Source: Halorhabdus utahensis DSM 12940
GTDB lineage: Archaea > Halobacteriota > Halobacteria > Halobacteriales > Haloarculaceae
Direction of reading: 5' to 3'
Length of the DNA stretch: 64,000 nt
Assembly: GCF_000023945.1 (NCBI RefSeq)
Contig: NC_013158.1
Location: 372,001 to 436,000 of the forward strand
A program made the translations under genes and the position numbers. Shown piece by piece: positions 6,184-7,469 of the stretch (the first letter of the stretch is position 1; each line of letters begins with the position of its first letter). The notes beneath the pieces are model-generated. The model did not search any database. It saw only the letters and a list, made by a program, of their open reading frames with translations, and was not told the origin of the DNA.

Positions 6184-6390
6184 TTACTGACGAACGAGAT
6201 TCGCCGCGCGGGGTCCTTTCGGGGAGGACTCGATATCGAACTCAACCTCAGTCCCTTCTGTCAGATCCTCACCGCCGACATCCTCCATGTGGAAGAAGAC
6301 ATCTTCGTCTTCGTCGAGGTCGCCGTCATCAGTCGAAATGAAACCGTAGCCGCCTGTGTCGTTGAAGAAATCAACCTTACCGTTTGCCAT
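6184..6390 (-). CDS. cspA: Cold-shock domain protein
   Basis: 68 residues beginning MANGKVDFFNDTGGYGFIST. It has the RNP1-like GYGFIST and RNP2-like DVFFHM motifs of the cold-shock OB fold, with the acidic insert DDGDLDEDED common in haloarchaea. It binds single-stranded nucleic acid, probably as an RNA chaperone. An in-frame ATG exists 10 codons upstream, but the internal start gives the standard family N-terminus, and a weak TATA-like GGGTTATGG lies about 25 nt before it. Single gene. Confidence 0.93.
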   Translation of the reverse strand: MANGKVDFFNDTGGYGFISTDDGDLDEDEDVFFHMEDVGGEDLTEGTEVEFDIESSPKGPRAANLVRQ

Positions 6391-6494
6391 TACAACCAAC
6401 TGTAGGACCGAGTGCGCCATAACCCTTCCGAGAGGGGCGTTACCACAACGCTTCTCACCTCAAATGGGATCGGAGTGGCTGATTGACGCGAGCG

Positions 6495-6980
6495 GAAAGC
6501 CGGGTTCGGTGACCCGGCGGGCGGCGATCGATGACAGCCGATGGCAGAGACATCCAGATTCACCAGCGACGGTGAAATCCGGTCGGCGAGAGACGATCGA
6601 GGGGGCAATCGTCAAGGTCGGCAACCGGGTCGAGTCGCCGACCCACGTGGCCCTTCGTGGTGTAGGTATGTAAATCTAATGTACAATCTCAATTGGGGAA
6701 GCTGGTCCCAGAATGGAGACATCAGCAGGCCGGACGCGGGGGCACGAACCAGTCGGCTTGACTTGCCAAAACATCTGCCAGGAGACGGCGCGATGACATC
6801 GACACGGGTGAGCAAAGCCGGGCGGGGGAAACCCGGCAAGCTGACAATTGATGGCATCGGACGGACAAAGTCGCCCGGATCACCGCGGTGGGGGGAGCCG
6901 CGATGAATGCCTCGCGTACAGCAACCACGGAGTGGTCGCTGGGGTCGATACGATGTGGACGCGCACCGACCCACATCAGC
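6495..6980. ncRNA. Candidate structured RNA (hairpin cluster), family unknown
   Basis: No convincing protein is encoded between the cold-shock gene and the next regulator (6391-7118). Perfect or near-perfect stems recur: 6499-6518 (7 bp), 6559-6576 (6 bp), 6592-6613 (6 bp), 6627-6644 (6 bp), 6817-6837 (6 bp), 6884-6902 (5 bp), 6919-6941 (4+5 bp with one mismatch) and 6952-6977 (7 bp). An AT-rich patch with TATGTAAATCTAATG lies at about 6667-6681. It lacks the GAGGAAAGTCC box of RNase P RNA and the helix-8 sequence of SRP RNA. Strand, ends and function are unknown. Confidence 0.35.
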
Positions 6981-7060
6981 GATTGGCTGAATGTCATGTG
7001 AATGTACCGAGCGTTTTCAGGATCAGAAGCCAGTGGATGGGTTCATTGCTCACTGATTTC

Positions 7061-7077
7061 GGCGACTGGCCGTCGCC
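7061..7077. terminator. Hairpin near the 3' end of the winged-helix gene
   Basis: Perfect 6-bp stem GGCGAC/GTCGCC around a 5-nt loop, about 40 nt beyond the minus-strand gene's stop. There is no strong T-run, so a terminator role is only plausible. Confidence 0.3.
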
Positions 7078-7118
7078 AGAATGCACGGAGACGAGTCGTC
7101 GTGGGGTCGCGAGTCAGT

Positions 7119-7469
7119 TCACTCCTCGTAGGCGAGATTCATGAGCCACTGGGTGAACTGTCCACTCTGCGCGTCGACCTCGTCGTCGCCGACGAACGGC
7201 GAGAGCATGTCGCCGGCCATCAAAAGCGAGAAGTTCAGATCCTTGGCTGTCGGCGTCAAGTGGTAGGTGTTGTGGCCATCGTAGACTGTTTCGTTGCGTT
7301 CGATGAGATCCTGTTCGGCCAGCGAATCGACGATCCGGGAGCCCTTGCGTGAACTCACGTCGAGTTCCTTCCAGAAGTCGCTCTGGTGGATGCCGCCAGT
7401 CTCGCGGATGAGTTCGAGGCCCCGTCGTTCATCCTCGGAAAGGTCGGACTCCGACGAATCAGTGCTCAT
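7119..7469 (-). CDS. Winged-helix DNA-binding protein
   Basis: 116 residues starting MSTDSSESDLSEDERR. The core GLELIRETGGIHQSDFWKELDVSSRKGSRIVDSLAEQDLIERN is a MarR/Lrp-like winged helix, and the wing (YDGHNTYHLTPTAK) is followed by a C-terminal helix with aromatic and hydrophobic residues, probably for dimerisation or ligand binding. It is small and has no separate sensor domain. It is divergent from the thiamine importer with about 240 nt between, so it may control thiB-thiP-thiQ; that link is inference. The frame stays open upstream, but the ATG at 7469 is the first start in an acidic haloarchaeal-type sequence. Confidence 0.75.
   Translation of the reverse strand: MSTDSSESDLSEDERRGLELIRETGGIHQSDFWKELDVSSRKGSRIVDSLAEQDLIERNETVYDGHNTYHLTPTAKDLNFSLLMAGDMLSPFVGDDEVDAQSGQFTQWLMNLAYEE

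Follow-up and report, generated by a model that had tools for sequence, protein, structure and literature searches.

Two predicted tandem RNA genes beside cspA

We propose that the noncoding DNA beside cspA in Halorhabdus utahensis holds two tandem minus-strand genes of a new family of structured small RNAs (sRNAs), siblings that most likely act in trans; we put the probability of this reading at about 0.55. That the region of the two copies, A and B, specifies a structured RNA is in itself very probable. The window, meaning the whole stretch of 64,000 nt that was analyzed, runs from base 372001 to base 436000 of a genome assembled as one contig (3,116,795 bp; G000). Within it, the minus-strand gene cspA, with its cold-shock domain, occupies 6184-6390, and the gene of an HTH/MarR-like regulator (7125-7469, also minus strand) lies on the far side of the RNA stretch. 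No plausible protein gene was found between the two, in line with the preliminary description, which had called this stretch geneless.

In a DNA search of related genomes, 6499-6691 and 6814-7029 were matched separately, at different places of the genome G006, and alignment of these matches identified two copies of one minus-strand element, about 50% identical to each other (Table 1). The eight stems previously listed within 6495-7000 all fold where they had been placed. They form one four-stem pattern that occurs twice: those at 6499-6518, 6559-6576, 6592-6613, and 6627-6644 are helices P5, P3, P2, and P1 of copy A, and those at 6817-6837, 6884-6902, 6919-6941, and 6952-6977 are the same helices of copy B. 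Neither this repetition nor the strand was part of the earlier reading. The AT-rich, promoter-like patch noted near 6667 corresponds to the TATA-like box of copy A.

Compared with dinucleotide shuffles, the 516-nt region folds well on the minus strand (z -4.81, with none of 100 shuffles as good) but only weakly better than its controls on the plus strand (z -1.77). A plus-strand RNA at the two copies was rejected on this weaker folding. Among 1596 GC-adjusted tiles of 160 nt in the window, 33 were at least as stable as copy B and 152 at least as stable as copy A; at this GC content the rank of the folding energy is unexceptional and not decisive by itself. What decides for a structured RNA, as judged from the sequences, is conservation and covariation.

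Table 1 Predicted features of copies A and B (window coordinates)
Feature	Position	Strand	Basis or remark
Copy B upstream element (TGAAAA)	7014-7019	-	TGARAN position
Copy B TATA-like box (TTCACATG)	6995-7002	-	30 nt from start of box to P1
Copy B predicted RNA, P1 to tail	6807-6972	-	R1 match 133.6 bits (sequence used to build R1); G006 ortholog
Copy B helix P1	6942-6972	-	Folding and covariation
Copy B helix P2	6919-6941	-	Folding and covariation
Copy B helix P3, C-rich loop	6880-6906	-	Folding
Copy B helix P4	6858-6878	-	Folding
Copy B conserved stretch, mostly unpaired, containing CATCAATTG	6838-6857	-	
Copy B 3′ hairpin P5, C-rich loop, pyrimidine-rich tail, possible terminator	6817-6837	-	
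Copy A upstream element (TGAGAT)	6686-6691	-	
Copy A TATA-like box (TTTACATA)	6667-6674	-	30 nt before P1
Copy A predicted RNA, P1 to tail	6489-6644	-	R1 match 115.6 bits (sequence used to build R1)
Copy A helix P1	6615-6644	-	Folding
Copy A helix P2	6592-6613	-	Folding
Copy A helix P3	6559-6576	-	Folding
Copy A helix P4 (weak)	6538-6556	-	Folding
Copy A conserved stretch, CATCGATCG variant	6520-6537	-	
Copy A 3′ hairpin P5	6499-6518	-	Folding

A family of related copies in three genomes

Searches with two covariance models, R1 (built from six copies) and R2 (built from fifteen), identified 15 strong copies, of which eight belong to this genome, four to G004, and three to G006. They scored E-values of 6e-28 to 9e-12 with R2, although any copy that went into a model is bound to match that model; those nine that R1 found outside its own build scored 2e-24 to 1e-4. 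A ninth, divergent copy of this genome (L045, E 0.017) was accepted as a member because P1, the TATA-like box, and their spacing are kept. This brings the family to 15 strong copies and one weak copy, nine of them in G000, four in G004, and three in G006. Conservation across relatives, which the preliminary description had asked for, extends to these two genomes but not to the other four of the genus, none of which has a copy.

Under strict filters, which may miss divergent relatives, no convincing match came from 148 genomes of the taxonomic family or from 394 genomes of the order. No match was found in phage and plasmid collections, and viral contigs gave only two short-pattern matches. A pattern scan of a broad genome-contig collection, from which near relatives are possibly absent, returned eight matches in unrelated bacteria, taken as chance. 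Seven weak matches (L028, L029, L034, L044, and L079-L081) were discarded; they have neither the TATA box nor CATCAATTG and appear to be chance matches in DNA that is GC-rich and for the most part coding. Apart from tRNAs, nothing in the window or at 11 other loci reached the gathering score of Rfam 15, and nothing in 6350-7150 matched even at E<=5. Archaeal RNase P and SRP RNA, which the preliminary description had already set aside, are alike in being structured noncoding RNAs. Among the papers we searched, none dealt with Halorhabdus small RNAs or with a haloarchaeal family of this kind. On this evidence, the family is previously uncatalogued, multicopy, and genus-restricted, with about 16 predicted genes in three related halophilic archaea.

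Conserved structure and promoter signal

The elements follow one another in a fixed order, namely TGARAN, a TATA-like TTTACATA, P1 (GGGTCGG...CCGACCC), P2, P3, P4, the mostly unpaired CATCAATTG, P5 (GCCGGG...CCCGGC), and a pyrimidine-rich tail. The predicted RNA genes are about 110-190 nt long and comprise four to five helices, then CATCAATTG, then the 3′ hairpin. All 16 units fold below their shuffles (mean z -4.0). In a model-fitted alignment, which leans to structure and misaligns some rows in P1 (e.g., L020), 90.5% of the cells were paired, 33 of the 42 pairs showed two-sided change, and covariation was 0.422, against 0.187 in shuffled and less than 0.1 in slid controls. An alignment of six copies made from sequence only (MAFFT) gave 0.259 versus 0.198 shuffled. 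When closely related copies were compared two by two (six comparisons), the substitution rate was 0.05-0.14 at paired and 0.27-0.33 at unpaired positions, making change at paired positions roughly threefold slower, and no more than one base pair was broken; the pairing was predicted from the same sequences, which favors few broken pairs. The copies have a conserved secondary structure with compensatory changes, as is expected of independent small RNA genes. The candidate new structured RNA of the preliminary description stands on the missing Rfam 15 match, the homologs with the same helices, and the compensatory change, except that there are two minus-strand RNAs, not one.

In a GC-rich genome, where short open reading frames can be read in such DNA, small-protein genes or chance hairpins have to be considered. 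No common reading frame runs across the copies, however; ORF starts and frames differ and three copies have no ORF, and the homologs and the covariation speak against chance. We regard this explanation as extremely improbable.

In each of the 16 copies, P1 lies 30-31 nt downstream of the start of the TATA-like box; for copy A the distance was counted by hand, the scripted match having fallen on an earlier GGG. TGARAN lies 17-18 nt upstream of the box, again in 16 of 16 copies, one or two of which have a base changed. The combined pattern of box and upstream element occurs at eight places in the seven genomes, seven of which are family members, and its reversed control nowhere. One promoter-pattern match, L071 in G005, was rejected as no RNA follows it. 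With such TATA spacing, transcription from an archaeal promoter would begin at or close to the first base of P1. Each copy has, as a sequence feature with a predicted start site, a putative promoter of its own at a fixed distance, which fits an independent small RNA gene. TATA and BRE motifs of haloarchaea have been described (PMC4983044).

RNAalifold also pairs a conserved GGUG with the CAUC of CATCAATTG (alignment columns 96-99 with 128-131), in competition with P3 (6838-6906 in copy B).

Orthology and genomic neighborhood

Copy B is orthologous to G6_1185, and the order of HTH regulator, element, and cspA is shared with G006. Hu_2323, G6_2288, and Ht_1997 are mutually orthologous and lie upstream of a Gfo/Idh-type oxidoreductase gene (named by eye). 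In the four genomes of the genus that have no family member, both the cspA-side and the Gfo/Idh-side loci have other neighboring sequence and no element. The homologs had been expected beside cspA genes; instead, the family is dispersed, and only copy B, on the cspA side, has an ortholog there in G006.

At the cspA and Gfo/Idh loci, the copies are oriented toward the respective gene, some 100 nt away, as cis-acting leaders or attenuators of such downstream genes would be. We consider this unlikely. Downstream genes are apparently convergent at L017, L021, L022, and L024 (ORF-based gene calls, some with Pfam support), and the downstream genes are unrelated to each other. Each copy ends in a 3′ hairpin, and copy A, with its own TATA box, sits between B and cspA. 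Because several copies face convergent genes, match nothing in Rfam, and share no ORF, they look like free-standing genes rather than leaders.

A MITE-like repeat or other non-autonomous mobile element, in which the hairpins are incidental, would also be dispersed, in places tandem, and patchy in the genus; one copy (L022) lies on a plasmid-sized contig, and the nearest relative of copy A is at another locus in G006. This too seems improbable, given that copies within the genome are 45-77% identical (45-79% overall) and not near-identical. Orthologous copies, kept at the same loci, are 72-79% identical, and copies from different loci mostly 45-68%, with a few paralogs of this genome at 69-77%. 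Stems conserved with compensatory change, the fixed promoter spacing, and the absence of convincing matches in phages, plasmids, and viral contigs also speak against it.

At three of seven independent loci of this genome, one of its ten Pilin_N genes lies 0.4-0.7 kb from the RNA gene, and one of the four loci in G004 is about 0.25 kb from a Pilin_N gene. DNA within 0.7 kb of pilin genes makes up about 0.5% of the genome (an estimate that ignores intergenic clustering), so that the adjacency looks more than chance.

Proposed function

The copies probably act as small regulators. Each would be transcribed from its own archaeal promoter, with TGARAN and the TATA-like box directing a start at P1, and the RNA would fold into four to five hairpins and end after the 3′ hairpin with its pyrimidine-rich tail, which together could terminate transcription. 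In Haloferax, hairpins and T stretches are terminators (PMC7237163). Base pairing with mRNAs, at sites that are G-rich or complementary, would involve the C-rich loops of the hairpins as well as the conserved and mostly single-stranded CATCAATTG; the first candidate targets are pilin and neighboring transcripts. Alternatively, these parts of the RNA might be held by an RNA-binding protein. The complement of CATCAATTG was not found by eye at four pilin starts. The nine paralogous copies of G000 fit what is expected of sibling trans-acting sRNAs, and the absence of the family from four of the seven genomes of the genus counts against this reading. The hairpin loops contain CCC in 32 of 68 cases and GGG in none; since C runs (39, against 37 in dinucleotide shuffles) do not exceed what dinucleotide composition gives, the C-rich bias of the loops is compositional.

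A rather doubtful alternative is a protein-titrating sponge with the logic of CsrB/RsmZ, in which each RNA, through its repeated hairpins with C-rich loops, would capture an RNA-binding protein in several molecules at once and draw it off mRNAs. CsrB and RsmZ have GGA loops and act with the CsrA protein; to our knowledge, no CsrA is known in archaea. The Halorhabdus RNAs resemble them in having many hairpins with the same kind of loop, never GGG, and many sibling copies, but their loops are C-rich. Moreover, C runs are not above composition, and the copies differ in loop sequence, which a sponge would be expected to keep. The csrB copies are known sibling sRNAs (PMC6262261).

For sRNAs that act in trans, the nearest working analog, judged by likeness, is the LhrC family of Listeria, which also has several siblings and, much as predicted here, a CU-rich hairpin loop, a single-stranded stretch, and a terminator loop, and whose CU-rich loops pair with mRNAs (PMC5880928). 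LhrC, however, is bacterial, has no known sequence relation to this family, and finds its targets at Shine-Dalgarno regions, a feature missing from most haloarchaeal mRNAs. As 72% of Haloferax mRNAs are leaderless (PMC4983044), Shine-Dalgarno pairing is unlikely to be the rule, which counts against such targeting; G-rich sites elsewhere in mRNAs or a protein partner may be bound instead. That genus-restricted regulatory sRNAs exist in haloarchaea is known from sRNA132 of Haloferax volcanii, likewise intergenic, with stems and a pyrimidine-rich single-stranded part (PMC6560208). By its description, sRNA132 has two stems, belongs to another genus, and is one gene.

More tentatively, one can imagine that at least nine sibling sRNAs form a regulon, all having the promoter signal TGARAN-N11/12-TTTACATA, loops rich in C, and CAUCAAUUG as a conserved core. 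Acting in trans, they would coordinate genes for surface pili and stress; they might also contain a switch, the conserved GGUG pairing with either the CACC of P3 or the CAYC next to CAAUUG. Few archaeal small RNAs have known functions. A family that combines many copies, one promoter signal, strongly conserved structure, and a pilin link would allow RNA-based regulation in haloarchaea to be tested in a compact system, besides adding a family missing from Rfam 15.

Other features of the loci

Type IV pilin genes (Pilin_N) with similar N-termini lie beside L024, L025, L020, and L045. Those at L024 and L025 are identical in a stretch that immediately precedes and spans the start (ATCATTCGTGATAGTGTATGGATCC), which suggests recent duplication or a shared control site, and at L024 the pilin and RNA genes are separated by a gene for an HTH protein whose domain resembles sigma-70 region 4. 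On the 330 kb contig G004:C1, a gene for a beta-CASP nuclease is the neighbor of L022. Where a PspAB-like gene (identified by eye) and a DUF7115 gene flank the locus, this genome has two copies (L026) and G006 has one, of another subgroup (L008); the nearby DNA seems to contain internal repeats. Finally, tRNA-Arg and tRNA-His genes are found within about 0.5 kb of L021 and L025.
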